A DNA stretch of 64,000 bases from Pseudomonadota bacterium. Lineage in GTDB: Bacteria; Pseudomonadota; Gammaproteobacteria; Steroidobacterales; Steroidobacteraceae. Where the stretch lies: NCBI GenBank assembly GCA_026398735.1, contig JAPLSH010000019.1, forward strand, positions 87,304 to 151,303. Direction: 5' to 3'. Position numbers and translations under genes: made by a program. The stretch's first letter is position 1, and each line of letters opens with the position of its first letter. Shown one piece after another: positions 636 to 59,356 of this stretch. The notes below the pieces were generated by a model. That model saw nothing but the letters and a program-made list of their open reading frames with translations, searched no databases and had not been told where the DNA came from.

Positions 636-2078
636 TCAATTTCCTGCAGCGTTACCGAGTTTGCGCAGTAGCGCTGCGGTGTCGGGGTGCACCTCGGCAC
701 CGGCCACGCCCGCACGGCCCGTACCACCTGCCTTGCCCTGCGCCACATCCAATGCTGTGGCACCGGCTTGGTCGCGAAGATCCAGCCACGCACCGACCTG
801 CGCCAGATAGCTGACAAACTCGTTCCAGCCCCATAAGGCGGCGCCATGCAATGCTGCTTGACCGTTGTCGCGCACCGCATTGGGGTTAGCCCCGGCTGCA
901 CGCAACAGTTTGGCGGTCTCGATGCTGCGCTGCTCATTGCGAAAACGCGCGCGGATGTCGATGGTGGTGGATCCAATTCCTGCCGCTGCCATGAACGGCG
1001 TAATACCCAACGAGTTGGGAAAATCAGCCTGGGCTTTGTAGCGGAGCAGTAGCGTTACTGCCTCCACGTCGCCGGCCTTGGCAGCGCGGATCAACGGCGT
1101 GGTGCCCACAGTCAGCATGCTGTCGCCACCACGGTCCTGTCCCAACGATCGATACGGGGGAAACAGCTTGAGCTGCATGTTGGGGTTGGCGCCCTTGTCC
1201 AGCAGCAGGCGCATCACATCCAGCGCCGTAGTGGCATCCCCAGAGGGTCGATCCGGACGCCCACCGCGCGGCGTGGTGTTGTAGTCCACAGCCGAATACA
1301 GCGGCGCTCTGCCCCATGTATCCCAGCGATTCACATCAGCGCCGGCCTTGATGAGGTAGGCCGCCGTGTCAAAGCGCGCGTTGAGCACCGCCATCAACAA
1401 AGGCGTGATGTTGTCTGGATCGGCCAGGTTGATTGCAGCGCCCCGCTCCACCAACGCCTTAGCGCAGTCGGTGCATCCCTCACGTGCTGCCAGCAGCAGC
1501 GCAGTAAAGCCACCGTTGGGACGATTCTGCGGCCGAGGCTCTGCAGACACTTTGCGCGGCCACTGCCGCACTGCCGAGCGCGCATCCACTTGTGCGCCGG
1601 CCTTGAGCAGCAAACGGACCATGTCGGGGTGACCCTGTGCAGAGGCCCACATAAGTGCGGTTTGCCCCCGCCACTGCTCCACTGCATTGACCTTGGCACC
1701 GGCAGCCAGCAACACTTTGGCGGCTTCTACACTGCCGGTCCGGGCCACCGTCATGAGCGCTGTTTGGCCCTCTGGGTTGGCCGACTCGACGTCCGCGCCA
1801 GCCTTGAGCAGGACGCGGATCAGCGTCGCATCACCGCGTTCGGCGGCCTCTGACAGCGGCGTGGCGCCGTAATCGTTGACGGCCTTCGGATCGGCACCGG
1901 CCTTGAGCAACTGCGTGACGCGCGCCATATCACCGTCGTGCACGGCCCAGTGCAACGGCGTCGTACCATCACCAGTGTCTGCAGGTGCAGCGCCGGGCAC
2001 GGCAGCAGCAGCCATCACTGCAACGGCGGACAACCCCAACAGGCCGGCAACCCGCCGCAATGAAAACATCCAAGGCAT
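636..2078 (-). CDS. Secreted ankyrin-repeat protein (locus 1)
   Basis: A 480-residue protein with an N-terminal signal peptide (about residues 1-30) followed by tandem ankyrin repeats. The repeats show the usual TPLHWAV and G-ADP/AANPN consensus pieces, for example DGTTPLHWAVHDGD and GQTALMWASAQGHP. Ankyrin repeats bind partner proteins and have no catalytic role by themselves. The signal peptide suggests a periplasmic or secreted protein. It starts 3 bp after the stop of the DUF1552 gene, so the two are surely cotranscribed. Closely similar proteins occur at 31159-32676 and 56937-58529, the latter again directly behind a DUF1552 gene. All three share a long spacer between repeats (the GGFTALLLAAREGC region and the LKLFPPYR region). 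The partner is unknown; a structural role with the neighbouring DUF1552/DUF1592 proteins is an inference. Confidence 0.88.
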   Translation of the reverse strand: MPWMFSLRRVAGLLGLSAVAVMAAAAVPGAAPADTGDGTTPLHWAVHDGDMARVTQLLKAGADPKAVNDYGATPLSEAAERGDATLIRVLLKAGADVESANPEGQTALMTVARTGSVEAAKVLLAAGAKVNAVEQWRGQTALMWASAQGHPDMVRLLLKAGAQVDARSAVRQWPRKVSAEPRPQNRPNGGFTALLLAAREGCTDCAKALVERGAAINLADPDNITPLLMAVLNARFDTAAYLIKAGADVNRWDTWGRAPLYSAVDYNTTPRGGRPDRPSGDATTALDVMRLLLDKGANPNMQLKLFPPYRSLGQDRGGDSMLTVGTTPLIRAAKAGDVEAVTLLLRYKAQADFPNSLGITPFMAAAGIGSTTIDIRARFRNEQRSIETAKLLRAAGANPNAVRDNGQAALHGAALWGWNEFVSYLAQVGAWLDLRDQAGATALDVAQGKAGGTGRAGVAGAEVHPDTAALLRKLGNAAGN

Positions 2079-2081: not shown

Positions 2082-3401
2082 TCAGATGCCGGCAAATACG
2101 CCGGAACTGTCGCCGAGCTTGTCCATCTCAATGCCGGCGCGCGCCAACAGTGTGAGGTGCAGATTGGCCAGCGGCGTGCGATCGGGCACTCGCAAATGTG
2201 TATTGCCACGCAGCGCACCGCCACCCTTACCCAGCACCGCAGTGGGCAGCGGGAAATGGTTGTGCATGTTGCTGTCGCTCATGTTGCTGCCAAACAGGAT
2301 GATCGAGTTGTCGAGCATCGTGCCTTCACCATCGGGCATCTCGGACATCTTCTTGACGAAGCGCGCGAAGGCCTGAGTATTCCAAGCCTGCAGCTTCGCC
2401 AGCCGCTCGATCTTCTGCGGGTTGTTGGCGTGATGCGAAAGCGGATGGAAGGCATCGGCGATGCCCATGAAGTTATAAGGCTGATTACTGACCTCGGCAG
2501 CCATCATAAAGCTGGCTACGCGCGTGAGATTGGCTTGGAACGCCAAGGCCATCAGGTCAAACTGCAATTTGACGTGTTCATCAAAGTTAGCCGGAATACC
2601 CGAGGGCGCATCAGGCAAACCCAGCTTTGAATTATCGCGTTTGGACAACTGCTGAACGCGCCGCTCGATCTCGCGCACCGTATCCAGATAATCGGCCATC
2701 AGAGCCTGATCCCGCGCCCCCAGGCTGCGCTTAAGGTCGGCTGCATCGCGACTGACCAGATCCAGGAGGCTGGCGTCTTCGCGCATCAAGGCAACGCGCT
2801 CGCTGGCCGTATCGCCCTGACCAAACAACTGCTGGAACAACTTGCGCGGATTGTGCTCCATGGGCAGCGGCGTAGATGGGGTACTAAAGGCAATGGTCTT
2901 GCCATAGCTGCAGCCGTAATTGCGATCGCATGAGCCTTCGCCACCGCGCTCTTCAGTGGCGATTTCCAGTGATGGCAACGCCGTGTCCTGCGAGATGCGC
3001 TTGGCGGCGATCTGATCCACCGTAATGCCGCCCAGCGGATCATGGCTAATGCGCGGCTCAACACAGCTGAGCCAAGTGCCCGGCGTGATGGCGTGCACCG
3101 GCGCAGCGATCGCCGACTTGTTCTCCATGCCACTGATCACCGTCAGGTGCTGCTGGAACGGCTTAAGCGGAGCCAGAATGGGCGGCAGATCAACATCTGC
3201 GCCATCCTTGGCCGGCGTCCACTTGTCCATCACTGCGCCATGAGGGAAGTACACAAAGGCCATACGGGCCTTGGCGGCCGCCGCAGTTTTGGCCAGCGCC
3301 GTATGAGCCGGGATCATCGCGTCAAGTAAAGGCAACGCCATACCCACGCCGACGCCACGCAACATGGTGCGACGGGAGATGTGCTTGCGAGTGATGTACA
3401 T
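2082..3401 (-). CDS. DUF1552 (HXXSHH) family protein, Tat-type signal (locus 1)
   Basis: A 439-residue protein of the DUF1552 family, named for its HXXSHH motif, visible here as HPLSHH at about residues 319-324. The N-terminus (SRRTMLRGVGVGMALPLL) has a twin-arginine motif followed by a hydrophobic stretch, so folded export to the periplasm is likely. The family is common in planctomycetes and some proteobacteria and usually sits beside DUF1592-type cytochromes; no reaction is established for it. The sequence context (FVYFPHGAVMDKW, ILFGSNMSDSNMHN) resembles the sulfatase-like DUF1501 relatives. It lies 30 bp downstream of the DUF1592 gene and 3 bp upstream of the ankyrin gene. A paralogue in the same context is at 55637-56947. 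The family call is firm; the function is unknown. Confidence 0.9.
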   Translation of the reverse strand: MYITRKHISRRTMLRGVGVGMALPLLDAMIPAHTALAKTAAAAKARMAFVYFPHGAVMDKWTPAKDGADVDLPPILAPLKPFQQHLTVISGMENKSAIAAPVHAITPGTWLSCVEPRISHDPLGGITVDQIAAKRISQDTALPSLEIATEERGGEGSCDRNYGCSYGKTIAFSTPSTPLPMEHNPRKLFQQLFGQGDTASERVALMREDASLLDLVSRDAADLKRSLGARDQALMADYLDTVREIERRVQQLSKRDNSKLGLPDAPSGIPANFDEHVKLQFDLMALAFQANLTRVASFMMAAEVSNQPYNFMGIADAFHPLSHHANNPQKIERLAKLQAWNTQAFARFVKKMSEMPDGEGTMLDNSIILFGSNMSDSNMHNHFPLPTAVLGKGGGALRGNTHLRVPDRTPLANLHLTLLARAGIEMDKLGDSSGVFAGI

Positions 3402-3431: not shown

Positions 3432-5882
3432 CTAGTGGCGCTGGGCAGTACGGGTTTGAGGGGCAGAGTCGACAGGCAGACGATCAGTCAGGAAGGCCGG
3501 ACTGTTCACGATACCCTCGATCAGCGCAGAAAGCCGCCATTGCTGGGGCTGCGCGTCGCGGACGATGGCGCGCAGCGTGGGCATGTCATGCCACGCCACT
3601 GGCCTGCCTAACGCGAACGTCATTAAATTCTCGGTGAAAGTGCCGACAAACTGCGGCGCGCGGGCCACGAGCGCCTCGCGCAGATCATCCGGGCCACGCA
3701 GCGCCGTGCCATCCACCAACTTGCCCGTGGCATCAATGCGCGCACCGGCATCAATGTCCTTGTCGCGCCATTGGCCCACGGCATTGAAGTTTTCCAGCGC
3801 CAACCCGAGCGGATCGATCACGCCATGGCAGGCATTGCAAGATTTGAGCGCACGATGCTGTTCCAGACGCGTGCGCACAGTGAGTTGCTCGGCCCCCTCC
3901 TGGTTTTCGGGAAAGGCCTCCACTGACGGCGGCGGTGCTGCGGGCGGCGTGCCCAGAAACTTTTCGAGCACATAAGCCCCACGCAACACCGGCGTGGTGC
4001 GATTGGCATAGGACGTAGCCATCAGAAAGGCGCCCTTGCCCAGCAGGCCATGGCGCCAGGACTGTTGCAGCTCAACGCGACGGAACTGGCCGCCACGCAC
4101 GTTGTGAAGACCGTAATGCAACGCCAGACGTTCGTTGACGTAGGTGTGCCGGGCAGTCAACAAGTCGAGCACGCTGCCATCGGCCTCGAAGACACTGGAC
4201 AAAAACAGTTCAAGCTCGCGGCGAAACGCTGGCACCAAGTCCTCAGTGTAATCCGGGAACAGATTAGGGTCGGGATTGACCAGATCAAGGCCATGTACGT
4301 TGAGCCATTGGAACGCAAAATTAGTGACCAGATTGTGCGCGCGCGGATCTGCCAACATGCGTTTGACCTGAGCTGAACGCACCTGAGGATTGTTCAACTT
4401 GCCCTGCTCGGCCAGCGCAATCAGCGTTTCATCGGGTGGGCCGGACCAGATAAAAAACGCCAACCTTGATGCCAAATCGATGTCACTCAATGCGAACACT
4501 TGCCCGGGTAGCGCATCGGCCGGCGGCACGTGAGCGCGATACAAAAAGCGCGGACTGGCAAGAATGGCTAACAGGCCCTTCTGGATGCCGGTGTCAAAAT
4601 CCGCCTGACGGCGGCCTTCTTCATAAAAATTGACGATGCCTTGCAACTCGGCATCGGTGACTGGCCGGCGAAATGCCTGTCGTGCCAACCGCGCCAGGAT
4701 GCTGCGCGCGCAAACGGGCTCTTCGGCTGCCGTCGAGGGATAGCAGCTGAACACTTTTTTGCGGCTGGCCGTAAGACTCAGCGCGCTACGGTTGATGGGC
4801 CCTTTGAGCTCGACATTGGTAATGCGCGGACCACCGGAATTGCCGTTGACCAACTGCGCCATGCCTTCAACCGGCACAAAGCCATGCAACAACTCGTTGG
4901 AGACTGCAGCAGTCTTCTGTCTGAACGTGACTCCGATGCGATGGGCACCGGCCGTGGCATGAAAGCGAATGTTGCGAAAGCGGTCATTGATAGCGCCCAC
5001 GCCTGCCGCCTGCTGCAGGTCGACGGCATCCAGATCTGCCGCATCGCCCAAGCCGGCTTGAAACACCCGGCGGCCATCGAGTGTGACCACTAGCGTCATC
5101 GGGTCCATCACGCCCCACAGATAGCCCCCGCCCACCAGACCATTGATGGTGACTTCATAGTCACCGTCCACCGGAAAAGCATGGTCGATGACCAAACCAC
5201 CGCGCGTACCCAGCGGCAGTCCCTCGATGTGCATGTACTGCAGGGCCTGCGCAGTACCTTGATAAATACGGCTGGTCAGGCGGGCAGATGGATTGCCTAT
5301 GGCCTGCACGCTGACTTGGCGAGCAGCGCTGAGATACTGATCCAAAAATGCCGGCGACACTTTAAGTACGGCAGCAGAGTTGTCGAAACCGGCGCTTTGG
5401 TCATCACGCGGCAGCAGCCCGTCGACGTCAATCTCCAGATCGAGCAATTGACGGATGGCGTTGGCGTATTCGGGCTTGTTGAGCCTATGCAAAGGCACGC
5501 TGCCCGGATTAACGGCAGCCGCCGACGCCGCATCCAGTCGCGTTTCCAGCGCCTGAGCAAACGCCGCAAGGGCGCTCTTGTCCGGCTGCAACTCACCTGG
5601 TGGCGGCATCAGCCGGCCACGCAATTTGCGCACCGCCTTTTCCCAGACCTCGGCATCACTGCCCACAGCCTGCGGTTGCAGCACATCGAATGCCACACCA
5701 CCGGCCCAGTCGGTCGCGTTGTGACACTTGCCACAATAGGTATCGACAAAGCTCCACTGCTGCTCCAACGGCACACCTGCAAGGCTGTCATGCGCAGCAG
5801 CGCCGGCAGGCGCCGCCACCAGCAACAGCGCTGTACTGCATAGCAGTGAGCGCCACAGCGCCGCCAGCTCAGCGCGTAACAC
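3432..5882 (-). CDS. DUF1587/DUF1592/DUF1588/DUF1585 dihaem protein (locus 1)
   Basis: I take the GTG at 5882 as the start. It gives 816 residues, exactly the length of the paralogue at 53180-55630, and puts a signal peptide (WRSLLCSTALLLVAAPAGA) at the N-terminus. The longer frame to 6029 would run deep into the upstream gene. Two c-type haem sites are visible, CGKCH at residues 50-54 and CNACH at 682-686. The region between matches the planctomycete-type block DUF1587 (NKPEYANAIRQLLDLE), DUF1595, DUF1592 (ASRLAFFIWSGPPDE), DUF1588 (TTPVLRGAYVLEKFLG) and DUF1585 at the end. A periplasmic redox role is inferred from the haem sites; the substrate is unknown. It overlaps the upstream MBL gene by 14 bp. 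Confidence 0.88.
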   Translation of the reverse strand: MLRAELAALWRSLLCSTALLLVAAPAGAAAHDSLAGVPLEQQWSFVDTYCGKCHNATDWAGGVAFDVLQPQAVGSDAEVWEKAVRKLRGRLMPPPGELQPDKSALAAFAQALETRLDAASAAAVNPGSVPLHRLNKPEYANAIRQLLDLEIDVDGLLPRDDQSAGFDNSAAVLKVSPAFLDQYLSAARQVSVQAIGNPSARLTSRIYQGTAQALQYMHIEGLPLGTRGGLVIDHAFPVDGDYEVTINGLVGGGYLWGVMDPMTLVVTLDGRRVFQAGLGDAADLDAVDLQQAAGVGAINDRFRNIRFHATAGAHRIGVTFRQKTAAVSNELLHGFVPVEGMAQLVNGNSGGPRITNVELKGPINRSALSLTASRKKVFSCYPSTAAEEPVCARSILARLARQAFRRPVTDAELQGIVNFYEEGRRQADFDTGIQKGLLAILASPRFLYRAHVPPADALPGQVFALSDIDLASRLAFFIWSGPPDETLIALAEQGKLNNPQVRSAQVKRMLADPRAHNLVTNFAFQWLNVHGLDLVNPDPNLFPDYTEDLVPAFRRELELFLSSVFEADGSVLDLLTARHTYVNERLALHYGLHNVRGGQFRRVELQQSWRHGLLGKGAFLMATSYANRTTPVLRGAYVLEKFLGTPPAAPPPSVEAFPENQEGAEQLTVRTRLEQHRALKSCNACHGVIDPLGLALENFNAVGQWRDKDIDAGARIDATGKLVDGTALRGPDDLREALVARAPQFVGTFTENLMTFALGRPVAWHDMPTLRAIVRDAQPQQWRLSALIEGIVNSPAFLTDRLPVDSAPQTRTAQRH

Positions 5883-6801
5883 GGCGGATCTCGTTGATAT
5901 GGGGCCAGGCGCTCTCGTAGGACTGCACCAGAAAGCCGGTGGGATCGCCGCGCAGTGCATCAAAATCCTTGCTGGGTTTGCTATCGAGAAACTGCTGGCG
6001 AGTCTCCCCCTTGTAGTAGCTCTCGGCAATGCGTTGCAGCACTGTGAAGCACAGATCTTGTTGGGCTTGAAGCTGCGCCTTACCGATCATCCTGCCATCA
6101 GCGTCCACAACGCGGGTTTGCGGACCGCAGCGCGCCATCAGCTGTTTGAGGCCACCGACCATGCCGCCGAGCCAGCCGTTCGTTGAATAGTCCACGATCG
6201 GATAACGGCTGGACACAGCCATAGCACCCGGTACCAGGACATCTTGAGATGGGAACCAGACATACAGATCACCATCGGTGAACCCATTGGGCAACACGCC
6301 GTATTCGACCTGCTGACCGCCAAAAGTCAGGGTACGACTACCGTAATGGAAAGTATCGGTGGGCAATGCGCGCGAGGGACGCGGCGCATACCGGCGCGAC
6401 TCCCAGGCACAGTGGATCTCGGTGCCCAACCACAGACGCGTGTTCTCGTGGGCGATAATACTGGCCCCAGCAGCCGCGGCGGTTTCGTTGTAACCGCTGC
6501 GATCCCAGCGCCAACTGGTGTTGATGAGACTGCGCAGGCGAGACCGGGGGAACTGCTGCGCCAAAAAGCCCGTGAGCGACTTGGCCGAGGCTGCCTCACC
6601 ACCGTCCACCAAGAGCAGCTGGCCGCCGTCTTCGGCCACCACCACCGGTGCGCCAAAACCAGTCAGCAGGTACAGCCCTTGGCCCAGCGGCATCAGCTGT
6701 GGCAAATCGGCACCGGCGTTGACAGGCAGGGGCACGCTTGCCTGGACGGCAAGCGCCAGCGAGCCAGCCAGCAGGCCACGACGCGTCAGACGATAAGACA
6801 A
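5869..6801 (-). CDS. Metallo-beta-lactamase-fold protein with degenerate metal site
   Basis: The protein has the MBL fold and a Tat-type leader (LTRRGLLAGSLALAVQA). I prefer the TTG start at 6801 because GGGGG lies just upstream, the leader then begins at residue 1, and the length (310 aa) matches the paralogue at 52115-53044 (309 aa). An upstream TTG at 6852 is possible. In the paralogue the metal motif is HWHGDR; here the same position reads SWRWDR. The later His in the paralogue stretch SQAHTDGDLYV is also replaced (PNGFTDGDLYV). Key zinc ligands are therefore missing, and the protein is probably not a hydrolase in the usual sense. It may be a binding or structural subunit. It sits between the ketoacyl synthase and DUF1592 genes of one operon. 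Confidence 0.8.
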   Translation of the reverse strand: MSYRLTRRGLLAGSLALAVQASVPLPVNAGADLPQLMPLGQGLYLLTGFGAPVVVAEDGGQLLLVDGGEAASAKSLTGFLAQQFPRSRLRSLINTSWRWDRSGYNETAAAAGASIIAHENTRLWLGTEIHCAWESRRYAPRPSRALPTDTFHYGSRTLTFGGQQVEYGVLPNGFTDGDLYVWFPSQDVLVPGAMAVSSRYPIVDYSTNGWLGGMVGGLKQLMARCGPQTRVVDADGRMIGKAQLQAQQDLCFTVLQRIAESYYKGETRQQFLDSKPSKDFDALRGDPTGFLVQSYESAWPHINEIRRVTR

Positions 6802-6835
6802 GAGACCCCCACTAACAGCAGCCAGACGATTGTAG

Positions 6836-7924
6836 TCAAACTGCAGTACCAACGGCAGCCGCGCGTCGCGATATCAGGCTTTTAACCAGTTCAAGGGCCG
6901 TGTGCTCACAGGGCGGCAGTTGAACCTCAGACTGCGCCAAGGGAAGAACTCGCGGCCCCCAGCGCAGCAGGTGCGCACACCAGGTCAGGCCGGCTCCAAA
7001 GGCGGGCAACAGCAACAGACCATTGGGGGGCACCCGACCTTCCTCCAAGGCCTCGACCAGCGCCACCGGCACGGTAGCTGCCGACATGTTGCCGTAGCGA
7101 TGCACATTGGTGAACACGCGTTCTGCGGGTAAGCCGGCTCGACGCGCTACGGCTTCGATAATGCGCAGGTTGGCCTGATGCGGCACTACCAGATCCAGAT
7201 CTGCTGCAGTCAAACCCTTGGCAGCCAACACCGCTGCACTGGCCTCCGACATCCCAACCACGGCGCGCTTGAAAATCTCCTGACCTTCAAACACCCAATC
7301 GGTCACGCCCAAGCGACGCTCAAAATCCGCATAGCGACTACCCATACCCTGAATCACCAGCGTGCCGCGTGCAGCGGCATCGCAGCCGAGCTTCTCAGCC
7401 AGCACGCCCTGCTCGGTGTCACTGGCTTCCAGTACCACGGCGGCACAGCCATCACCAAACAGCACCGCCACATTGCGATTGGTCCAGTCCATCAACGGAG
7501 TGATGACCTCGCCACCGACCACCAGTGCACGCTGCACCACACCGCTGCGGATCATTGCTGTGGCAGTGCTCAGCGCATACAAGAAACTGGTGCACGCCGT
7601 GTTCACATCCATGGCTGCAGCACTCATCGCACCCAAACGCAGCTGCAAGCCCGACGACTGATTGGGCACCTGATCATCAAAGCTACAGGTACCGAACACG
7701 ATCAGATCCAGGTCCGCAGCCTGTAAGCCCGCGGCAGCCAGCGCGCGACTGGCCGCGACATAGGCCAACTCTTCCAGCCGCACATGCGAGATGCGACGCT
7801 CTTTGATGCCTGTGCGGGACACGATCCACTCATCATCAGTGGGCAGCACAGTGGCAAGTTCGGCATTGGTCAGCACTGCGGGCGGCAGGCACTTGCCCCA
7901 CCCGGTTACAGCGGCATATTGCAT
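6836..7924 (-). CDS. 3-oxoacyl-ACP synthase III family protein
   Basis: A 362-residue thiolase-fold condensing enzyme of the FabH type. The catalytic triad is visible as Cys111 (NTACTSFL), His249 (VPHQANLR) and Asn279 (YGNMSAATVPVAL). FabH-type enzymes condense an acyl-CoA with malonyl-ACP or transfer acyl groups in specialised pathways. The start at 7924 is chosen because GGGGGA lies 6 bases upstream; the reading frame continues further upstream without FabH similarity. At 362 residues it is somewhat longer than housekeeping FabH (about 320), with an extra C-terminal tail. No fatty-acid genes are nearby. It heads the operon of MBL-fold, DUF1592, DUF1552, ankyrin and PQQ dehydrogenase genes, so an accessory role is more likely than general lipid synthesis. 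Confidence 0.87.
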   Translation of the reverse strand: MQYAAVTGWGKCLPPAVLTNAELATVLPTDDEWIVSRTGIKERRISHVRLEELAYVAASRALAAAGLQAADLDLIVFGTCSFDDQVPNQSSGLQLRLGAMSAAAMDVNTACTSFLYALSTATAMIRSGVVQRALVVGGEVITPLMDWTNRNVAVLFGDGCAAVVLEASDTEQGVLAEKLGCDAAARGTLVIQGMGSRYADFERRLGVTDWVFEGQEIFKRAVVGMSEASAAVLAAKGLTAADLDLVVPHQANLRIIEAVARRAGLPAERVFTNVHRYGNMSAATVPVALVEALEEGRVPPNGLLLLPAFGAGLTWCAHLLRWGPRVLPLAQSEVQLPPCEHTALELVKSLISRRAAAVGTAV

Positions 7925-37252: not shown

Positions 37253-37270
37253 TCAAGATGTAACTAGAAC

Positions 37271-39226: not shown

Positions 39227-40115
39227 CGCAGCGGCCGCGCTGGCGGCGCTGCTGCTGTGTGGCACTGCATTGGCTCAGGCGCCTGCAGAACCGCGCGGCC
39301 CGCCGCCGCCGGGCTATGGCGATGCCTATGCCGGCAAGAAGAAGGTGCTGGTGATAGGCGATCTGCATACGGGCAATCAGAACGCCCACGATGCGCTCAG
39401 CCATGCCATTGCCACCATCGAGCAACTGGGCCGCAGCAGCGGTGCTTATGTGAGCTTTCTGCGCACCGATACGCAGTGGATCACCAAGGATGAAGTCTGG
39501 GGCATGGGCGACTATGCCAAGGGTGGGCCGCGTCAGGCGCGTGGCCGCAACCTCGATTCGTTTGATGCCGTGGTGTTCTATACCAATGGCGAGACCGAGA
39601 TGACCGCGGTGCAGAAGCAGGCACTGTTGGCGTATGTGCGCGATGAGGGTAAGGGCTTTGTGGCCATCCACACGGCCAACATTCCATATCCGTCTTGGCA
39701 GGACTACGCGCGGATGATCAGTGCCAACTGGGACAATCATCCGTGGGGCATTGTCGAGGCACGCCTGCGGGTCGAGCGGCCCGACTTCCCGGGCCTTGCA
39801 GCACTGCCGCGCAGTTTTATTGCACGCGATGAGTTCTATCAGTACACAGCGCCCTTCACCCGCGATGATGTGGACGTGTTGGTGAGCATCGACACCAGCA
39901 GCGTTGATCTGACCAATCGCAACGTGCACCGCGCTGATCACGACTTTCCGCAGGTGTGGGCCAAGCGCTATGGCAAGGGCAGGGTGTTCTCATCGGCCTT
40001 GGGTCATACCGATGCGTCGTGGGATGACCCGAATGTGCAGCGCATCGTGCTTGAAGGCATCAAGTGGGCCATCGGCAGCAGCAGCTACGAGCCCAAGCCC
40101 CACGCAGCTCCCTAG
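39198..40115 (+). CDS. Exported ThuA-like protein
   Basis: A 305-residue protein with a signal peptide (LRCRSAAAALAALLLCG, cleavage near LAQA) and a ThuA/glutamine-amidotransferase-like fold: KKVLVIGDLHTGNQNAHDAL, FDAVVFYTNGETEMTAVQKQ, GKGFVAIHTANIPYPSW and GRVFSSALGHTDASW. ThuA-like proteins are often coupled to sugar catabolism; the function here is unknown. The ATG at 39198 lies inside the end of the PQQ dehydrogenase gene and is in frame with the signal peptide. Confidence 0.82.
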   Translation: MRLLSLRCRSAAAALAALLLCGTALAQAPAEPRGPPPPGYGDAYAGKKKVLVIGDLHTGNQNAHDALSHAIATIEQLGRSSGAYVSFLRTDTQWITKDEVWGMGDYAKGGPRQARGRNLDSFDAVVFYTNGETEMTAVQKQALLAYVRDEGKGFVAIHTANIPYPSWQDYARMISANWDNHPWGIVEARLRVERPDFPGLAALPRSFIARDEFYQYTAPFTRDDVDVLVSIDTSSVDLTNRNVHRADHDFPQVWAKRYGKGRVFSSALGHTDASWDDPNVQRIVLEGIKWAIGSSSYEPKPHAAP

Positions 40116-52114: not shown

Positions 52115-53044
52115 TCAGGCGTCGGGGGCCATGCGTGGCCACAAACTCTTAAACGATTCGGTCAGAAACTGCGTGGAATCACCGAGCTTGTCTTCATAGT
52201 CTTTGGCCGGTGTGGCCGCCAACATGTCCGCCGGCGCAAAGCCTTTGCGCAGCATCTTGGTCAACTGATCGGCAATGTTAGCCAGCATGGCCTGTTCGCT
52301 GACCAGCGCGGCCTTGTTCCACAGTGCAGTGCCGTTGGCGGTGACCACGCGCGTGGCGTCGTCGCACTGGTCGATGAGTGTCTTGTAGCCGTTGACTGTG
52401 CCGGTGATCCAGCCGCCGGTTACCCAGTCGGCAGTGGGCCAACCGTTGCCGGCCACCACACCGCCAGTCACCAGCACGTTGGCCTTGGCAAACTTCACAT
52501 ACAGATCGCCATCGGTGTGCGCCTGCGACAGATAGCCATAGCGCACGGTCTCGTCGCCCAGTTGCAGCTCACCGCTGCCATAGGTGCTGGCGTTGGGCCG
52601 TGCTTTGGGTGGCAGTCGGCGGATCGGCGTGGCATCGGGTGTCATGCGTACATCGGTCGAGAGCCACAGCTTGGTGTTCTCGTGGGCGATGATCTTGCAG
52701 CCCTCGCGGCCCAATACGTCATTGAGCCCGGTGCGATCGCCATGCCAGTGCGTGTTGATCAGCGTATGGACCTTGCGGGCGCCTAGTTCACGCTGGATCA
52801 GCTTTAACGCCGCCGGACCGCTTGCGGCATCGCCGCCATCGACCAACAGCAACCCTGTGGTATCGCGCGCGGCGACGATGTTGCCGCCCGCACCGGTGAT
52901 CAGCAGCAGTGAATCTGAAAGACGCTGGCTCGACAGTGCACCGGCGGGTGTCGAAGCACTGAAGCCCAGGCGGCTGAAGACCAGCGCCGCAGCGCCGGTG
53001 AGTGTGGCGCCCAGAAAGTGGCGTCGCGTGTTGTGGCTGCTCAT
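52115..53044 (-). CDS. Metallo-beta-lactamase-fold hydrolase, Tat-exported (locus 2)
   Basis: A 309-residue MBL-fold protein with a twin-arginine leader (TRRHFLGATLTGAAALVFS). The metal motif is HWHGDR at 99-104, with another His in SQAHTDGDLY. Unlike its paralogue at 5869-6801, which has SWRWDR in this place, it keeps these His ligands; both have Arg where many MBL enzymes have the last His of HxHxDH. The substrate is unknown; nothing indicates an antibiotic-resistance role. It is divergent from the second DUF1592/DUF1552/ankyrin operon, whereas the paralogue is inside the first. Confidence 0.87.
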   Translation of the reverse strand: MSSHNTRRHFLGATLTGAAALVFSRLGFSASTPAGALSSQRLSDSLLLITGAGGNIVAARDTTGLLLVDGGDAASGPAALKLIQRELGARKVHTLINTHWHGDRTGLNDVLGREGCKIIAHENTKLWLSTDVRMTPDATPIRRLPPKARPNASTYGSGELQLGDETVRYGYLSQAHTDGDLYVKFAKANVLVTGGVVAGNGWPTADWVTGGWITGTVNGYKTLIDQCDDATRVVTANGTALWNKAALVSEQAMLANIADQLTKMLRKGFAPADMLAATPAKDYEDKLGDSTQFLTESFKSLWPRMAPDA

Positions 53045-53179
53045 GGCGGGGCACTCTAGCGCACTTGGACAACTGTGGCGCAGTCGCCAAATTGCGGGCG
53101 AAGCGCGGGCACTTCAGGCTTAGAATCGGGTCAATGACCGCAGGGTGCTTGTGCATCCTGGAGTGGGGGATCGACCGAC

Positions 53180-55630
53180 ATGCGAATCAGGAAAATGGTG
53201 CTGCTGAGCTTGGCTTTGGCCTGCGGGTCTACGGCCTGGGCTGCACCTGCGGCCACCAAGCCCGATGCCAAAGCAGCCGAGGGGCACTTTGCCACGTTGG
53301 GCAAATACTGCGGCGACTGCCACAACGCCACCGATTGGGCTGGCGGCTTGGCGTTTGACACGCTGGCTGCCGACAGCGTGCCGGCCGATGCCAAGATCTG
53401 GGAAAAGGTCCTCAATCGCACCCGCGGTGGTTTGATGCCGCCGCCGGGTCAACCGCGTCCTCCCGCAGCTCAGCTTCAGGGCTTAGTCAGCTGGCTCGAA
53501 GGCAGCATCGACAAAGCTGCGCTACCGCATGTGGATCCGGGTCAGGTGTCGCTACATCGGTTGAACCGCCGTGAATATGCCAATGCAGTGCGCTACCTGC
53601 TCAACCTCGAACTAGACCCCGCCTCGCTGTTGCCGCAGGACGATTACAGCGACGGCTTCGACAACATCGCCAAAGTGCTGCAGGTGTCGCCTTCGTTCCT
53701 CGATCAATACTTGGCCGCAGCCCGCAATGTGGCGGTCATGGCCGTGGGCAATCCGGCTGCACGGCCTGTGGGCACGCCCTACGTCAACAACGAAGGTGGC
53801 AAGCAGCTTGGCTACGTGCAGGGCCTGCCGCTGGGCACGCGCGGCGGTATGGCGGTCGAGCACGTGTTCCCGGCCGACGGTGAATATGAGATCAATGTGG
53901 CCGACATGGCCCATGCGCTGTGGGTTGAGGGCATGGAGTTCAACAACACGCTGGTGGTGTTGGTGGATGGCCGCAAGGTCTATGAGACTTCGCTAGGCGG
54001 TGATCAGGATCAGCGTTCCATCGACCAGAAGGGCGATCCTTCCGTCGATGCCATCAACAAGCGGCTTAAGAACATCCGCTTTCAGGCCAAGGCCGGTCAG
54101 CGCAAGGTGGCTGTCACCTTCAAAGCACTCACTGCTGCCGAAAGCGATGCGCGTTTGATGCCGCTGTTGCCTGGTGGCGGTGAAGAGCGTGTGCTGCGTG
54201 TGCGCGGCTTTGAAGTGCGCGGCCCGTTTAGTACTAAGGGCGTAAGCCAAACTATTAGCCGCGAGCGCATCTTTGTGTGCCAACCGGCAACGGCTGCAGA
54301 CGAGCAGCCCTGCGCTAAGCAGATTCTGGGCACCATTGCCCGGCGCGCCTACCGTCGGCCGCTGGTCGATGCGGATGTGCAGACCTTGATGGGTGCATAT
54401 AACACGGCACGTCAGGGCCGCAGCTTTGACGAGGGCATTCGGGCAGGCCTCACGCGCATTCTGGCCAGCCCAGACTTTTTGTTTCGTGCCGAAGCACCGC
54501 CGGTCGGTGTGCAGCCTGGCGAGAGCTATCGCCTGAACGATCTGCAACTGGCCTCGCGCCTGTCGTTCTTCTTGTGGAGCAACCTGCCCGACGACGAGCT
54601 ACTCGATGTGGCAGTGCGTGGGGATTTGCACAAGCCCGAGGTGCTCGAGAAGCAGGTGCAGCGAATGCTGGCCGATGCGCGTGCACAGACGCTGGCAGCC
54701 GACTTTGCGTTTCAGTGGCTGGGCATGAAGAAGCTGGCAGACATCGAGCCTGATGTGGCGGTGTTTCCTTATGCCGCCAATCATCGCGACATTGATGGTG
54801 ACATCCGCAAAGACTTCCGTGAGGAACTGCGACTGTTCATCGACAGCGTGTTTCGCGAGAACCGCCCAGCCACCGAGCTGCTGACGGCCAACTACAGTTT
54901 CCTCAACGAACCGCTGGCGCTGCACTACGACATCAAGGACGTGAAGGGCAGTCAGTACCGTCGCGTGACGCTGCCCGAGTCCGAGCGCAACGGCTTGCTG
55001 GGTAAGGCTGCCGTGCTGATGGTCACTAGCTACCCCAATCGCACCGCACCGGTGCTGCGCGGCGCGTGGATACTCGAAAACTTGCTGGGCGCCACGCCCA
55101 CGCCACCACCGCCCAATGTGGAGGCCCTCAAAGAGCCTTTGCCTGGCGCCAAACTGCTCACAGTGCGCGAACTGATGGCGCAGCACAGCGTGCAAAAGAG
55201 CTGCCATGCCTGTCATGGCGTGATGGACCCGTTGGGTTTTGCGCTGGAAGGCTTTGATGGTGTGGGCCGCTCGCGTGAGCGCGATCGCTTGGCTGGCACG
55301 CTGATCGACACGTCATCGGCCTTGCCCGATGGCACACCGGTCAATGGTCCGGACGAACTGCGCAAGGCGCTTTCTGCGCGCTCTGGCCAGTTTGTGCAGA
55401 CACTCACCCAGAAGCTGATGACCTATGGCACCGGCCGGGTCATGGAATGGCATGACATGCCCACCGTGCGCGCCATCGTCAGTGATGTTGCGCGCCAGGA
55501 CTACCGCATGTTGCCGTTGTTCATGGCCGTCATCCGCAGTCCCCAGTTCCAGATGCAGCGCTTGCCGTCCGACAATGCTTTGGCCCAGCCCAAGCAAGCC
55601 GCGCTGTTGCCCAACGAGTCGCAGAGGTAA
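53180..55630 (+). CDS. DUF1587/DUF1592/DUF1588/DUF1585 dihaem protein (locus 2)
   Basis: An 816-residue protein, the same length as the paralogue at 3432-5882. A signal peptide is followed by haem motifs CGDCH (44-48) and CHACH (675-679), with the same internal order: DUF1587 (NRREYANAVRYLLNLELDPA), DUF1595 (AYRRPLVDADVQTLMGAYNT), DUF1592 (ASRLSFFLWSNLPDDELLDV), DUF1588 (TAPVLRGAWILENLLGATPT) and DUF1585 near the end. A periplasmic redox role is inferred. The DUF1552 gene follows 6 bp downstream. Confidence 0.9.
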   Translation: MRIRKMVLLSLALACGSTAWAAPAATKPDAKAAEGHFATLGKYCGDCHNATDWAGGLAFDTLAADSVPADAKIWEKVLNRTRGGLMPPPGQPRPPAAQLQGLVSWLEGSIDKAALPHVDPGQVSLHRLNRREYANAVRYLLNLELDPASLLPQDDYSDGFDNIAKVLQVSPSFLDQYLAAARNVAVMAVGNPAARPVGTPYVNNEGGKQLGYVQGLPLGTRGGMAVEHVFPADGEYEINVADMAHALWVEGMEFNNTLVVLVDGRKVYETSLGGDQDQRSIDQKGDPSVDAINKRLKNIRFQAKAGQRKVAVTFKALTAAESDARLMPLLPGGGEERVLRVRGFEVRGPFSTKGVSQTISRERIFVCQPATAADEQPCAKQILGTIARRAYRRPLVDADVQTLMGAYNTARQGRSFDEGIRAGLTRILASPDFLFRAEAPPVGVQPGESYRLNDLQLASRLSFFLWSNLPDDELLDVAVRGDLHKPEVLEKQVQRMLADARAQTLAADFAFQWLGMKKLADIEPDVAVFPYAANHRDIDGDIRKDFREELRLFIDSVFRENRPATELLTANYSFLNEPLALHYDIKDVKGSQYRRVTLPESERNGLLGKAAVLMVTSYPNRTAPVLRGAWILENLLGATPTPPPPNVEALKEPLPGAKLLTVRELMAQHSVQKSCHACHGVMDPLGFALEGFDGVGRSRERDRLAGTLIDTSSALPDGTPVNGPDELRKALSARSGQFVQTLTQKLMTYGTGRVMEWHDMPTVRAIVSDVARQDYRMLPLFMAVIRSPQFQMQRLPSDNALAQPKQAALLPNESQR

Positions 55631-55636
55631 GCCGTC

Positions 55637-56947
55637 ATGTTCATCACCAAGAAGCATCTCGACCGTCGTACCGTGTTGCGTGGGGCCGGTGTCAGCGTTG
55701 CGCTGCCGCTGCTCGACGCCATGATTCCGGCGCGCACGGCACTGGCTGCTACTGCGGCTCGACCCTTGCCCAAGCTGGGCTTTGTGTACTTCCCGCATGG
55801 CGCGGTGATGTCGGAGTGGACGCCTAAGACCACCGGCAAGAACTTTGAGATCCCCAAGATCCTCGAGCCCGCAGCCAAGTACAAAGACTATCTGACCATC
55901 GTCAGTGGTCTGCGTAACCGCGGCGGCGAGAGCAACACGCCGCACGCGATCATTGCCGGTACTTGGCTTGGGTGTGTAGCGCCTGCGGTCAGCCACGATC
56001 CGCGCGCCGGCACGACGGTGGATCAGATGGCCGCGCGCGTTATCAGCAACGACACGCCGTTTCCCTCGCTAGAGCTGTCGACCGAAGCGGGCACGGTGTG
56101 TGATCCGGGCTATGGCTGCAGCTATGGCAACACCATTTCGTTTCGCTCGCCCACGCAGCCGCTGCCGATGGAGTTCAACCCGCGCAAGGTGTTCTACCGT
56201 CTGTTTGGTCAGGGCGACACCGCTGACGAGCGCGTGGCTATCGTTCAAGAGACCGGCAGCATTCTCGATTCGGTTGCGGGCGATGCCAATGCACTGCGTC
56301 AGCGTTTGGCTGCGCACGATCAGGTGATGGTGTCCGACTATCTGGAATCGGTGCGCGAGATCGAGCGTCGCATTCAGAAGATGCGCACTCAGGGCACCGG
56401 TGGCATAGAGCTGCCCGACACACCGGCAGGTGTGCCGGCAGACTTCGAAGAGCACCTGCGCTTGATGTTCGAGATGATGGCGCTGGCCTATCAGGCCAAT
56501 CTGACACGCGTGGCCTCGATGATGATGGCGCGCGAAGTCAGCATGCGCACCTACAACAACCTGGGCATCTCCGATGCATTCCATCCGTTGTCGCACCATC
56601 AGAACAACCCCGACAAGTTGGTCAAGCTCATCAAGGTGCAGAACTTCCACACCAAGGTGTTCAACGGCTTCCTGGATCGCTTGGCCAAAACCCCCGATGG
56701 CGATGGGTCGCTGCTGGATCATTCGTTGATTTTGTTCGGCAGCAACATGAGCAACAGCGACATGCACAACAACAATCCGCTGCCGGCGGCGTTGTTTGGC
56801 AAAGCCTATGGCCGGGTGAAGGGCGGACAACATTTGGCACAACCTGCAGATGCACCGCTGGCTAATCTGATGCTCACCATCCTGGATCGCGCCGGGGCAC
56901 CAGTCGAAAAGTTTGCCGACAGCACAGGGCTCATCAGTGAAGTGTGA
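55637..56947 (+). CDS. DUF1552 (HXXSHH) family protein (locus 2)
   Basis: A 436-residue protein with the motif HPLSHH at about 316-321 (SDAFHPLSHHQNN) and a twin-arginine-like leader (RRTVLRGAGVSVALPLLDAM). It is strongly similar throughout to the paralogue at 2082-3401: AFVYFPHGAVM versus GFVYFPHGAVM, HPLSHH in both, and ILFGSNMS in both. The function is unknown. Its stop overlaps the ankyrin start by 11 bases, so it is cotranscribed. Confidence 0.9.
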   Translation: MFITKKHLDRRTVLRGAGVSVALPLLDAMIPARTALAATAARPLPKLGFVYFPHGAVMSEWTPKTTGKNFEIPKILEPAAKYKDYLTIVSGLRNRGGESNTPHAIIAGTWLGCVAPAVSHDPRAGTTVDQMAARVISNDTPFPSLELSTEAGTVCDPGYGCSYGNTISFRSPTQPLPMEFNPRKVFYRLFGQGDTADERVAIVQETGSILDSVAGDANALRQRLAAHDQVMVSDYLESVREIERRIQKMRTQGTGGIELPDTPAGVPADFEEHLRLMFEMMALAYQANLTRVASMMMAREVSMRTYNNLGISDAFHPLSHHQNNPDKLVKLIKVQNFHTKVFNGFLDRLAKTPDGDGSLLDHSLILFGSNMSNSDMHNNNPLPAALFGKAYGRVKGGQHLAQPADAPLANLMLTILDRAGAPVEKFADSTGLISEV

Positions 56948-58529
56948 TCGGCTACAAGCGGGCAGGGCGCTGGTCGCCGCCTGCGTGCTGGCATTGAGCT
57001 GCAACACGGCTTGGGCCACACCGCAGCAGGATGTGCAGTTGTTGCAGGCAGCAGCAGCACAAGACCCAGAGACCGCGCTGTATGCGCTATCGGCTGGTGC
57101 GGATGCTCGCGCCACCGAAGCCGATGGCACGACAGCGCTGCACTATGCGGCGCATTTTGGCGATCTGCTGCTGACTCAAGCGTTGCTTAAGGCCAAGGCC
57201 GATCCCAATGCCCGCAATGAGTTTGCCTCGACACCGCTGGCTGAGGCGGCTGTGCTGGGCGATGCCAAGCTGATCGCGCTGCTGCTCAAGGCAGGCGCAG
57301 ACCCAGAGTCGGCCAATGCAGAAGGCCAGACTGCACTGATGACCGTGGCACGTGCGGGCAAGCTTGAGGCCGCCAAGTTGCTGCTCAAGGCCGGTGCCAA
57401 GGTCGATGCGCGCGAACAGTGGGCAGGTCAGACGGCGCTGATGTGGGCCTCGGCGCAGGGCCATCCGGCCATGATTAAGCTGCTACTGGCTAATGGCGCT
57501 AACCCCAACCTACGCGGCGCTATCCGCGATTGGCAGCGTCGCTTAACCGCAGAGCCCCGCCCCAAGGGTATGAACCGGGGTGGCTTCACGCCGCTGCTGT
57601 ATGCCGCTCGTGAAGGCTGTGTGGAGTGCGCACGTGAGCTGCTGGCAGGTAAGGCCGACATCAACCTGGCTGACCCGGAGCGCAGTTCACCGTTGCTGGT
57701 TGCCTTGATGAATCTGCATTTTGATTTTGCGGCGACGCTCATCAAAGCCGGCGCCGATGTGGATATGTGGGACCTGTACGGCCAAACGCCGCTGTATGTG
57801 GCCATCGACATGAATACGTTGCCGCGCGGCGGCCGGCCGGATTTGCTCAGCGAAGACAAGCTCACGGGTTTGGACGTGGCCGGGTTGCTGCTCAAGGCCG
57901 GCGCCAATCCCAACATCCAGCTCAAACTGCGTCCGCCGTATCGCAATTACATCTTCGATCGCGGTGGTGATCAGGTGCTCTCAACCGGCGCCACGGCGCT
58001 GATGCGCGCGGCCAAGGGCGGCGATGCGGCAGCGATCAAACTGCTGCTAGCCCACAAAGCCAACATCGAGCTGCCCAACGACGACGGCATTACACCGCTG
58101 ATGGTTGCTGCCGGCATGGGCCATGGCGCCAATCCCACGCGCGGTCGCTACAAGACCGATGCTGATGCGGCGGAGTGCACCCGTTTGTTGCTCGAGGCGG
58201 GCGGCCTGATTGATGCGCGCGCACGTTCGCAGCAGACCGCGCTGCACAGCGCCGCTCAGCACGGCTGGAGTGAGACGGTAAAGCTGCTGGTGGCGCGAGG
58301 CGCTGCGCTGCAGCCGGAAGACTCGCGGGGGCTGACGCCCATCGACTTTGCGGCAGGCCGGTATCAGCGTGCGTTTTTAGAGCCCGAGCCCAAGACCTGG
58401 ACAGAAACGGTGGGCCTGCTGCGCGGCTATATCGTGGCTGCGACAGGCCAGGAGCCCAAAGAAAGCAAGGGCCCCAAGCCGGCCCCGACCCGGGGCACAG
58501 GCAATACTGAGCAGGCACAGGCAAAGTAG
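56937..58529 (+). CDS. Secreted ankyrin-repeat protein (locus 2)
   Basis: A 530-residue protein starting at a GTG inside the end of the DUF1552 gene; signal peptide about 1-27 (RALVAACVLALSCNTAWA). About ten ankyrin repeats follow (DGTTALHYAAHFGDLLLTQA, EGQTALMTVARAGKLEAAKL, AGQTALMWASAQGHPAMIKL), with the same spacers as the other two ankyrin proteins (GGFTPLLYAAREGC; LKLRPPYRNYIFDRGGDQ). The C-terminal tail is a Pro/Lys-rich extension. It is the third gene of the second DUF1592/DUF1552/ankyrin module. A TTG 8 codons upstream is unlikely. Confidence 0.88.
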   Translation: MKCDRLQAGRALVAACVLALSCNTAWATPQQDVQLLQAAAAQDPETALYALSAGADARATEADGTTALHYAAHFGDLLLTQALLKAKADPNARNEFASTPLAEAAVLGDAKLIALLLKAGADPESANAEGQTALMTVARAGKLEAAKLLLKAGAKVDAREQWAGQTALMWASAQGHPAMIKLLLANGANPNLRGAIRDWQRRLTAEPRPKGMNRGGFTPLLYAAREGCVECARELLAGKADINLADPERSSPLLVALMNLHFDFAATLIKAGADVDMWDLYGQTPLYVAIDMNTLPRGGRPDLLSEDKLTGLDVAGLLLKAGANPNIQLKLRPPYRNYIFDRGGDQVLSTGATALMRAAKGGDAAAIKLLLAHKANIELPNDDGITPLMVAAGMGHGANPTRGRYKTDADAAECTRLLLEAGGLIDARARSQQTALHSAAQHGWSETVKLLVARGAALQPEDSRGLTPIDFAAGRYQRAFLEPEPKTWTETVGLLRGYIVAATGQEPKESKGPKPAPTRGTGNTEQAQAK

Positions 58530-58558: not shown

Positions 58559-58605
58559 GCCCTTTCACGGCGGCGACAGGGGTTCGAATCCCCTTGGGGA
58601 CGCCA
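58559..58605 (+). pseudogene. tRNA-Glu 3' fragment (possible att site)
   Basis: The 47 bases from the anticodon stem to CCA match tRNA-Glu(TTC): loop CTTTCAC, then GGCGG, CGACAGGGGTTCGAATCCCC and TTGGGGACGCCA. The 5' half upstream does not supply the GTCCCC acceptor strand, so this is not a working tRNA. A 3' fragment of exactly this kind is what integration into a tRNA gene leaves at the far end of an island. The intact tRNA-Glu is not in the window. Confidence 0.75.
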
Positions 58606-58767
58606 ATTTTTAGGCGACGTTAGCGTCATCAGTAACGTCCCCTTGGGGACGCCAATTTTTAGGCGACGTTAGCGTCATCAGTAACGTCCCCTTGGGGACG
58701 CCAATTCAGGCTCGGCGGTTACGTCATCAGTGACCTCCGCTCAAAGACGCCATTTCAGGCTCGGCGG
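58590..58767. repeat. 49-bp-period tandem array derived from tRNA-Glu ends
   Basis: CCCCTTGGGGACGCC occurs at 58590, 58639 and 58688, a strict 49-bp period. Each unit also holds the inverted GACG/CGTC pair and TCATCAGTAA. The last units (TTCAGGCTCGGCGG) are diverged but keep the 49-bp spacing, giving about 3.6 copies. In the units, GTCCCCTT (5' end of tRNA-Glu) is joined to GGGGACGCCA (its 3' end), so they look like collapsed tRNA copies or repeated integration scars. There are no unique spacers, so it is not a CRISPR. Confidence 0.8.
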
Positions 58768-59061
58768 CTATTCGGTGTATCCAGCCTCCCGCTGGTGACG
58801 CACCGCCAGAATCATCACGACATCTTCCTTGGGCAGCCATCTGTACTTGGCGATATAGCCATAGCGACCCCGCGACAGTATCAATTCACGGCGGCCGTCT
58901 TCTGCGTCCCGGCCCAACAGCGGATGGTCTGCAAGCAGTTCCAAAGCGCGTCGGACGCTGCGCACTTGATTGGCTGCACGCTCCGGGCTTTCGGCGGCAA
59001 TAAAATCGAATAAGCGCTCTAGGTCGCGCAGTGCGGCAACGGTTATTTGGACGCGCGCCAT
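58768..59061 (-). CDS. RelE/ParE-family toxin
   Basis: A 97-residue toxin (ITVAALRDLERLFDFIAAES, then ANQVRSVRRALELLADHPLL, LILSRGRYGYIAKYRWLPKE and the end ILAVRHQREAGY) of the RelE/ParE family. It would act on ribosomal mRNA or DNA gyrase. The antitoxin overlaps it upstream. The gene ends at the tandem array beside the tRNA-Glu fragment, a typical place for an island-borne stabilisation module. Confidence 0.88.
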   Translation of the reverse strand: MARVQITVAALRDLERLFDFIAAESPERAANQVRSVRRALELLADHPLLGRDAEDGRRELILSRGRYGYIAKYRWLPKEDVVMILAVRHQREAGYTE

Positions 59062-59333
59062 GACTTGGCCAGAGGCGGGCGGACTTTCTTGCCGGCAACA
59101 CGAGCTTCGAGGTAATCGAATGCTGCGTCCAATGAGTGGGCTTTGCCCGACGCCACAGTCTGTAATTCAGATCGTTCGGCATCAGCGGCAAATTGCGCCT
59201 GTAATTCGCCCCGCCGGGCTTCTCGTTCCAGAGCATCAATCATGAAGGCGTGCGGCGTTTGCCCGGCATTGGCTGCCAACTGAGCCAAGCGTTGTTTGAG
59301 TTCTAGCGTCAGCTTGAGACTGGTTGCAGACAT
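59043..59333 (-). CDS. ParD/CopG-like antitoxin
   Basis: A 96-residue antitoxin with a ribbon-helix-helix N-terminus (SLKLTLELKQRLAQLAANAG, QTPHAFMIDALEREA) and a C-terminal toxin-binding helix. It overlaps the toxin gene by 19 bases. The ATG at 59333 follows GGAG. The dyad at 59357-59377 is the likely operator. Confidence 0.82.
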   Translation of the reverse strand: MSATSLKLTLELKQRLAQLAANAGQTPHAFMIDALEREARRGELQAQFAADAERSELQTVASGKAHSLDAAFDYLEARVAGKKVRPPLAKSWRASK

Positions 59334-59356
59334 GACTTGCTCCATCGAGTAGTCAG

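Follow-up and report, generated by a model that had tools for sequence, protein, structure and literature searches.

The 64,000-nucleotide stretch analyzed here (the window; part of contig JAPLSH010000019.1, from a bacterium of the Steroidobacteraceae) carries at positions 52115-58529 a module in which a DUF1592 gene, a DUF1552 gene and an ankyrin-repeat gene follow one another, with a gene of the metallo-β-lactamase (MBL) fold alongside. It is the second such module in the window, the first lying at 636-6852. Our findings demonstrate that the DUF1592, DUF1552 and ankyrin genes are one evolutionary unit, inherited and duplicated together, and that the co-inheritance of the MBL gene with this unit is weaker. 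The module points to an apparently exported multi-protein machine outside the inner membrane. We propose, largely by inference and with a probability of roughly 0.42, that it is a redox module that acts on organic substrates in the periplasm, that it has been duplicated as a unit and specialized, and that the ankyrin protein is a dedicated partner in it.

Results

DUF1592, DUF1552 and ankyrin genes share a common history

Trees of the four families were built with FastTree and their patristic distances compared by permutation, support values not being considered; the rows that passed the script's length limits were 76 DUF1592, 96 DUF1552, 74 ankyrin and 58 MBL proteins from 96 modules. Across loci, the distances correlated for DUF1592 and DUF1552 (r = 0.90, n = 76), DUF1552 and ankyrin (r = 0.88, n = 74), DUF1592 and ankyrin (r = 0.86, n = 58), and DUF1552 and MBL (r = 0.80, n = 58), with none of 1000 permutations as high in any of these comparisons. 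The same congruence is found among the paralogs of single genomes, and thus it cannot be accounted for by species history. For DUF1592 and DUF1552, r was 0.94 in the genome under study (G000), 0.86 in G055, 0.93 in G029 and 0.92 in G012 (0/3000 permutations each). In the same order of genomes, the values were 0.94, 0.85, 0.93 and 0.95 for DUF1552 and ankyrin (at most 9/3000 permutations), and 0.88, 0.75, 0.87 and 0.86 for DUF1592 and ankyrin (at most 10/3000). For DUF1552 and MBL in G012, r was 0.80 (42/3000 permutations); the MBL rows of G055 were too few for a comparison within that genome. The original prediction had taken the repeated arrangement of the three genes to be a single unit, a view that differing gene histories would contradict, and the congruent trees, also among paralogs in four genomes, bear it out.

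Eight copies in the genome

Although only two modules had been described at the outset, the whole genome (2.77 Mb, 98% complete) holds eight DUF1592-DUF1552 pairs, with all eight DUF1592 places and all eight DUF1552 places paired. An ankyrin gene directly follows DUF1552 in all seven modules with room for one. In the eighth module, the MBL gene is cut off where contig C12 stops. The beginning of contig C19 shares a 388-bp overlap (96.9% identity) with this contig end, and on it lie the rest of an MBL gene and, after it, an ankyrin gene. Most likely, all eight modules have every gene, the junction of C12 and C19 being deduced from the overlap. The genome has nine Ank_2 places, eight of which belong to modules when the C19 ankyrin gene is counted with the eighth.

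An MBL-family gene adjoins all eight modules, two of these genes being doubtful. That of locus L017 (L017:12573-13450, - strand) is split across two frames, by either a frameshift or an assembly error, and that of the second module in L019 is convergent, only 20% identical to the window MBL protein, and may belong elsewhere. The claim that an MBL gene adjoins the module stands for this genome, subject to one split gene and one distant, convergent gene, and does not extend to many modules elsewhere.

The two modules of the window

The open reading frames (ORFs) of the second module were confirmed, and Pfam assigns them to the MBL, DUF1592, DUF1552 and ankyrin families (Table 1). The DUF1592 protein has PSCyt1, DUF1587, DUF1595, DUF1592, DUF1588 and DUF1585 domains, all six over the Pfam cut-offs, and the DUF1552 protein scores 285.7 bits against a cut-off of 30 for PF07586. 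The longest ankyrin ORF spans 56913-58529 on the + strand (538 aa from TTG); GTG 56937, which overlaps the 3′ end of the DUF1552 gene by 11 nt, is the likelier start. In the first module the order on the - strand is MBL, DUF1592, DUF1552, ankyrin, so the MBL gene is upstream on the same strand there and divergent from the three + strand genes in the second, an adjacency that agrees with the original description.

Table 1. Genes of the two modules in the window, with coordinates in window positions
Module	Gene	Coordinates	Strand	Remarks
Second	MBL fold (Lactamase_B)	52115..53044	-	309 aa; PF00753, E 4.6e-13
Second	DUF1592	53180..55630	+	816 aa; assigned by Pfam
Second	DUF1552 (HXXSHH)	55637..56947	+	436 aa; PF07586, E 7e-85
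Second	Ankyrin repeat	56937..58529	+	530 aa from GTG; Ank_2, E 2.4e-60 (on the longer ORF)
First	Ankyrin repeat	636..2078	-	
First	DUF1552	2082..3401	-	PF07586, E 2.1e-88
First	DUF1592	3432..5882	-	816 aa from GTG 5882; 865-aa ORF from TTG
First	MBL family	5869..6852	-	36.5% identity to the second-module MBL protein (BLAST)

Identity between the two modules is far above chance for each family: 53% for ankyrin, 47% for DUF1592, 55% for DUF1552 and 37% for MBL. Both DUF1552 copies have the motif HPLSHH, as had been noticed, and it matches the motif that gives PF07586 its name. The equal length of the two DUF1592 proteins, also remarked upon earlier, holds if the first copy starts at GTG 5882, but it is not a constant of the family, since the ORFs of the eight copies range from 795 to 971 aa. 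The first-module MBL-family protein has no Pfam match at E <= 0.001, and S, R and F replace its three metal-site histidines.

The window also holds a third ankyrin gene of this type (31159-32676, + strand), whose product shares 53% identity and similar spacers with the module ankyrin. No DUF1552 or DUF1592 gene lies beside it; it is in a row with genes for an amidohydrolase (29505) and an NAD-binding protein (30380).

Predicted properties of the encoded proteins

A twin-arginine translocation (Tat)-like motif, detected by a crude pattern, is present in 95 of 96 DUF1552 proteins and 48 of 58 MBL proteins, and in 14 of 76 DUF1592 and 11 of 74 ankyrin proteins; the second-module DUF1552 protein of the window has such a signal. 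Signal sequences of the DUF1592 and ankyrin families were judged by eye, and by this measure the window ankyrin protein has a signal-like hydrophobic N-terminus.

The AlphaFold model of DUF1552 (pLDDT 87) has an alkaline-phosphatase/sulfatase fold, the best match being sulfatase 7stt (Z 16.9, rmsd 4.0, 267 residues aligned); across the best 50 entries, which include sulfatases and nucleotide phosphodiesterases, Z runs from 16.9 to 15.8. With Foldseek the best E value was 4.7e-6 and the TM-score 0.38. Polar residues found in all 96 proteins are H103, D129, Q130, E146, R199, D211, D228, R240, E243, H316, H320 and H377, and E300, S319 and H321 are conserved in 95. Residues 92-111, where the nucleophile site was placed by topology and not by residue superposition, hold no conserved Ser, Thr or Cys (the best being T109, in 77 of 96). 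At a permissive Pfam threshold (E <= 1), the only match besides DUF1552 found in more than four of 81 proteins was a Tat signal, and the sulfatase family was not among the 25 listed of the 36 families matched. The family alignment (A5) joins the window protein to 80 of 86 reference proteins. With the DUF1552 profile, the only matches to solved-structure sequences were ones that we took as noise (best E 0.44).

All 61 proteins of the DUF1592 alignment (A6; the window protein and all 60 references) have two CxxCH heme motifs, at C44-H48 and C675-H679 in the window protein, and M86 and H669 are conserved throughout; M86 is likely to be an axial heme ligand. In the structure model (pLDDT 89), residues ~197-350 form a jelly-roll closest to the carbohydrate-binding module (CBM) families CBM36 and CBM35, at a middling Z of 7.5. 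A Foldseek search with this model returned no match at E <= 0.001, and the helical remainder outside residues 192-354 was barely covered. Matches of the DUF1592 profile to solved-structure sequences were again taken as noise (best E 0.68).

The second-module MBL protein of the window has the Tat-like signal TRRHFLG and retains the putative metal ligands H99, H101 and H176. All three first-site histidines are found in 53 of 58 MBL proteins; like the first-module protein of the window, those of L047 and L060 have none of them. At the second metal site, the final histidine (aligned position 237) is present in only 7 of 58, and hence we do not claim a dinuclear hydrolase. A search of solved structures returned 109 MBL-fold chains at E <= 0.001. 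An assignment as quinoprotein relay zinc metallohydrolase was rejected, because the scores for NCBIfam TIGR04558 and TIGR04559 were 32.6 bits against 300 and 47.9 against 280, respectively. Similarly, the best score of the ankyrin protein as a secreted Dot/Icm effector was 134.8 bits against an NCBIfam cut-off of 600, which we ascribe to generic ankyrin similarity, and a role as secreted effector was likewise rejected. In PADLOC the MBL, DUF1592 and DUF1552 proteins match no defense model, and the three models matched by the ankyrin protein (PDC-M72A, Ankyrin and MzaA) are attributed to shared ankyrin repeats; an anti-phage defense system was thus discarded.

Distribution and gene content

DUF1552 is present in 19 of the 60 nearest genomes, the genome under study included. 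All eight other members of the genus carry it, in 1 to 10 copies, and outside the genus it is patchy among relatives, with up to 14 copies; several relatives hold 7 to 14 copies of the module. In the phylum at large, 6 of 299 sampled genomes have DUF1552, again counting the one under study. Matches to PSD2 (the DUF1592 domain) and to DUF1552 are equal in number in 14 of the 19 genomes. Some of the counted PSD2 matches are weak and come from frames of ~400 aa, and a single weak match of this sort is also present in each of 16 genomes that lack DUF1552. Weak matches of this kind (L112:1924-5622 and L113:1806-5432) concern proteins of 390-399 aa with one CxxCH, followed by proteins of 813-832 aa with CxxCH motifs. 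These form another conserved pair, in G019, which has no DUF1552, and in G006, which has eight.

A scan of named genomes gave 80 loci, which were kept as the best matches to the query and are hence a biased sample; they come from Gammaproteobacteria, Alphaproteobacteria, Acidobacteriota and a few other groups. The counts of gene content leave out modules where the sequence ended too soon on the side in question. Among the 88 modules of these loci, the script placed DUF1592 directly upstream of DUF1552 in 78 of 85, and three of its seven misses (L026, L073 and L091) do have a DUF1592 match there. In 66 of 76, an ankyrin gene of the same orientation lies downstream, and four of the ten misses (L032, L083, L094 and L099) have an ankyrin match elsewhere nearby. 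Where there was room on both sides, an MBL gene was within ~4.5 kb in 30 of 43 modules, and all four genes were together in 27.

For a less biased set, we took the modules of three further multi-copy genomes together with a number of single-copy loci. In G055, G029 and G012, respectively, the script found DUF1592 in 13/14, 9/9 and 12/13 modules, ankyrin in 12/14, 7/9 and 10/13, and MBL in 2/14, 7/9 and 7/13, some of its misses falling at contig ends. Ten modules lie outside the four multi-copy genomes; eight of them are distant, low-scoring pairs, and the sequence around some is short. An ankyrin match was found in one of the ten (L115, 136 bits), and no MBL match in any. This scarcity in distant pairs indicates that the ankyrin gene marks one DUF1552-DUF1592 subfamily. 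The proposal that each DUF1552 has a cognate ankyrin is therefore sound within that subfamily but not in general. The MBL gene is a frequent yet losable member of the module. In a genome with a single DUF1552, a DUF1592-DUF1552 pair with no ankyrin or MBL match (L114:4453-9585) adjoins a protein that by eye resembles cytochrome b561.

Genomic surroundings

Flanks of up to 10 kb around the loci gave 22 neighbor clusters common to at least three loci, and Pfam was run on the medoids of 10 of them. Of 87 loci, 13 have a pyrroloquinoline quinone (PQQ) dehydrogenase as a neighbor and 8 an MFS transporter; the medoid of the largest cluster (19 loci) has no Pfam match. Among 124 neighbors scanned (those of 136 selected proteins that fell within the residue limit; raw counts with no random-gene baseline), the PQQ families are the largest (7 to 8 members), followed by MFS_1 with 4 and cytochrome b561 with 3. 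A ketoacyl synthase and a PQQ dehydrogenase had been regarded as optional additions to the core, and this assessment is upheld. The ketoacyl synthase ORF falls in none of the 22 clusters, none of the 25 most frequent of the 124 families in the scanned neighbors is a ketoacyl-synthase family, and the position of this gene near the module looks incidental; PQQ dehydrogenase is a recurrent neighbor, although present in only the minority of loci given above.

In the genome under study, module neighbors include RPE65-type oxygenases, thiamine-diphosphate enzymes, an FAD_binding_3 protein, a GMC oxidoreductase and a P450, as well as MFS transporters and esterase-type, mandelate-racemase-type and isochorismatase-type proteins, surroundings that suggest peripheral catabolism of organic compounds. 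Two sulfatases in the genome are over the cut-off. Between the two modules of the window, genes for a TonB-dependent receptor, a PQQ dehydrogenase and a ThuA-family protein stand in a row (34376-40115, + strand).

Directly 3′ of the second-module ankyrin gene, at 58589-58755, are three repeat copies with 49-nt spacing, the third being 74% alike. By eye they contain a stretch resembling the 3′ end of a tRNA, and ARAGORN and Rfam detected no tRNA there. Two overlapping small ORFs at 58768-59345 (- strand) look by eye like a toxin-antitoxin pair (RelE/ParE-like with an antitoxin), and a gene for a molybdopterin-binding protein also lies downstream of the module.

Discussion

If the module is a periplasmic redox system, its proteins would jointly act on small organic compounds in the periplasm. 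DUF1552 would fold in the cytoplasm before Tat export, and might be a metal-dependent enzyme on an alkaline-phosphatase fold in which a histidine-rich center replaces the usual nucleophile site. Either DUF1552 or an adjoining dehydrogenase would oxidize or activate the substrate, the DUF1592 diheme cytochrome would bind substrate or glycan through its CBM-like domain, and its hemes would feed electrons into the respiratory chain. An ester or lactone intermediate could be hydrolyzed by those MBL proteins that have kept their histidines. By analogy with AnkB and KatB, the ankyrin protein may be a partner-specific docking or maturation factor for its own DUF1552/DUF1592 pair, and such a dedicated partner would account for each copy keeping its own ankyrin gene. 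The paralogs, eight here and 7 to 14 in several relatives, could represent substrate-specialized versions. A more elaborate form of this proposal, which we find rather improbable, is that they are parallel, insulated periplasmic redox machines, each consisting of DUF1552 as a novel type of metallo-oxidoreductase, with a histidine center replacing the nucleophile on the alkaline-phosphatase fold, and its own diheme cytochrome, with the co-evolving ankyrin protein serving as an address that prevents cross-assembly among 8-14 sets.

Several observations weigh against the redox module with a dedicated ankyrin partner. The near invariance of S319 in the HXXSHH motif makes a hydrolytic nucleophile elsewhere in DUF1552 possible. 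The third ankyrin gene of the window, of module type but without a DUF1552/DUF1592 pair, implies that the role of these ankyrin proteins need not be tied to DUF1552, and ankyrin is absent despite room at L140 and L151. No DUF1592 match was found beside DUF1552 at L034, L042, L077, L103 and L116. The MBL gene is missing from many modules, as in G055, at least one first-site histidine is lacking in 5 of 58 MBL proteins, and tree agreement is weaker for MBL with DUF1592 in G012 (r = 0.64, 91/3000 permutations) and with ankyrin in the genome under study (r = 0.55, 114/3000). Moreover, the neighbor scan reveals no dominant pathway, the top family having 8 members of 124, and the vicinity of PQQ dehydrogenases may simply reflect their abundance, as the genome has 35 matches to them (several per frame).

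Other explanations of the module can be weighed against the same evidence. It is conceivable, though unlikely, that DUF1552 functions as a conventional alkaline-phosphatase-superfamily hydrolase, similar to a sulfatase or phosphodiesterase, which takes a group off a glycan or lipid and is positioned mainly by DUF1592 with its CBM35/36-like domain, with the hemes serving in regulation or another step. This would agree with the fold matches to sulfatases and nucleotide phosphodiesterases, with S319, and with the reported frequent occurrence of sulfatase genes close to PSCyt genes in certain Verrucomicrobia (PMC5615132). However, a conserved Ser, Thr or Cys is lacking in the expected nucleophile region, the 25 Pfam families listed for DUF1552 proteins do not include the sulfatase family, and two heme motifs in all 61 aligned DUF1592 proteins are hard to reconcile with hydrolysis alone. 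We regard as less probable again a unit for peroxide handling or heme maturation, in which the ankyrin protein would help load heme into DUF1592, as proposed for AnkB and KatB, and DUF1592 would be a diheme peroxidase. A glutathione-peroxidase-family gene does follow the module of L021, and genes for cytochrome b561 and a cytochrome c′-cluster protein lie beside that of L017. Nevertheless, distant DUF1592-DUF1552 pairs (L129-L134) lack the ankyrin gene, no peroxidase family is among the 25 commonest in the scanned neighbors, and DUF1552, MBL and the eight copies would be left unexplained.

The presence in DUF1592 of DUF1587, heme motifs and a CBM-like domain brings to mind Cbp2D of Cellvibrio, which has a DUF1587 domain and a c-type cytochrome domain, the latter reducing lytic polysaccharide monooxygenases (LPMOs) in vitro (PMC8981238). 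An equivalent role for DUF1592 as electron donor to LPMOs is very improbable, given that the genome has eight modules and no LPMO_10 match (other LPMO families were not searched). Finally, the genes might be clustered by chance or by hitch-hiking without a shared function, and the variable position of MBL, and sometimes of ankyrin (upstream, between, downstream or divergent), could be read in this manner. This explanation is hardly credible, for it is rejected by the congruent paralog trees within four genomes, and the same four genes recur in records of Gammaproteobacteria, Alphaproteobacteria and Acidobacteriota (for example L029 and L030).

The alkaline-phosphatase fold of DUF1552 is, we assume, shared by DUF1501. 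The pair of DUF1501 and DUF1800 resembles our module in that a protein with a Tat motif is conserved in an operon with a second protein and neither has a known function (PMC5122149), but other Pfam families are involved, and the passages of that paper on the pair mention no ankyrin or MBL gene. AnkB-KatB of Pseudomonas aeruginosa and Cj1386-KatA are comparable in that an ankyrin-type protein assists a heme protein, periplasmic AnkB being thought to help load heme into the catalase KatB (PMC7567364). They differ in that the heme protein is a catalase and in the lack of DUF1552, DUF1592 and MBL. Cbp2D of the Cellvibrio japonicus Cbp2D/Cbp2E system shares with DUF1592 a DUF1587 domain, a c-type heme domain and a CBM (PMC8981238), but Cbp2D/Cbp2E have CBM2 and YceI-like domains and a link to LPMOs.

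The closest precedent is found in Planctomycetes and Verrucomicrobia, where PSCyt3 genes, which are of DUF1592 type, usually adjoin a family of unknown genes, the functions of both having been described as unknown in 2017 (PMC5615132). We infer that this partner family is DUF1552. A redox role has been suggested for the related PSD1/PSC2 proteins (PMC2754498). Unlike the PSCyt3 pairs, the module examined here includes an ankyrin gene inherited with the pair and, in many cases, an MBL gene, and it reaches 7-14 copies in several genomes. In the open-access PMC literature (subscription papers and preprints being outside this scope) we found no paper that joins DUF1552 with DUF1592 and no description of a DUF1552-DUF1592-ankyrin/MBL module. 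Within that literature the addition of ankyrin and MBL appears new, and the association of PSCyt3 genes with an unknown family is already in print.

Pfam still lists DUF1552 and DUF1592 as proteins of unknown function, and the co-inherited ankyrin and MBL genes provide a concrete list of partners for joint purification. Because many paralogs occur per genome, natural matched and mismatched pairs are at hand, and partner specificity is directly testable. If DUF1552 is indeed a redox or non-nucleophilic enzyme, it would represent new chemistry for the large and well-studied alkaline-phosphatase superfamily.

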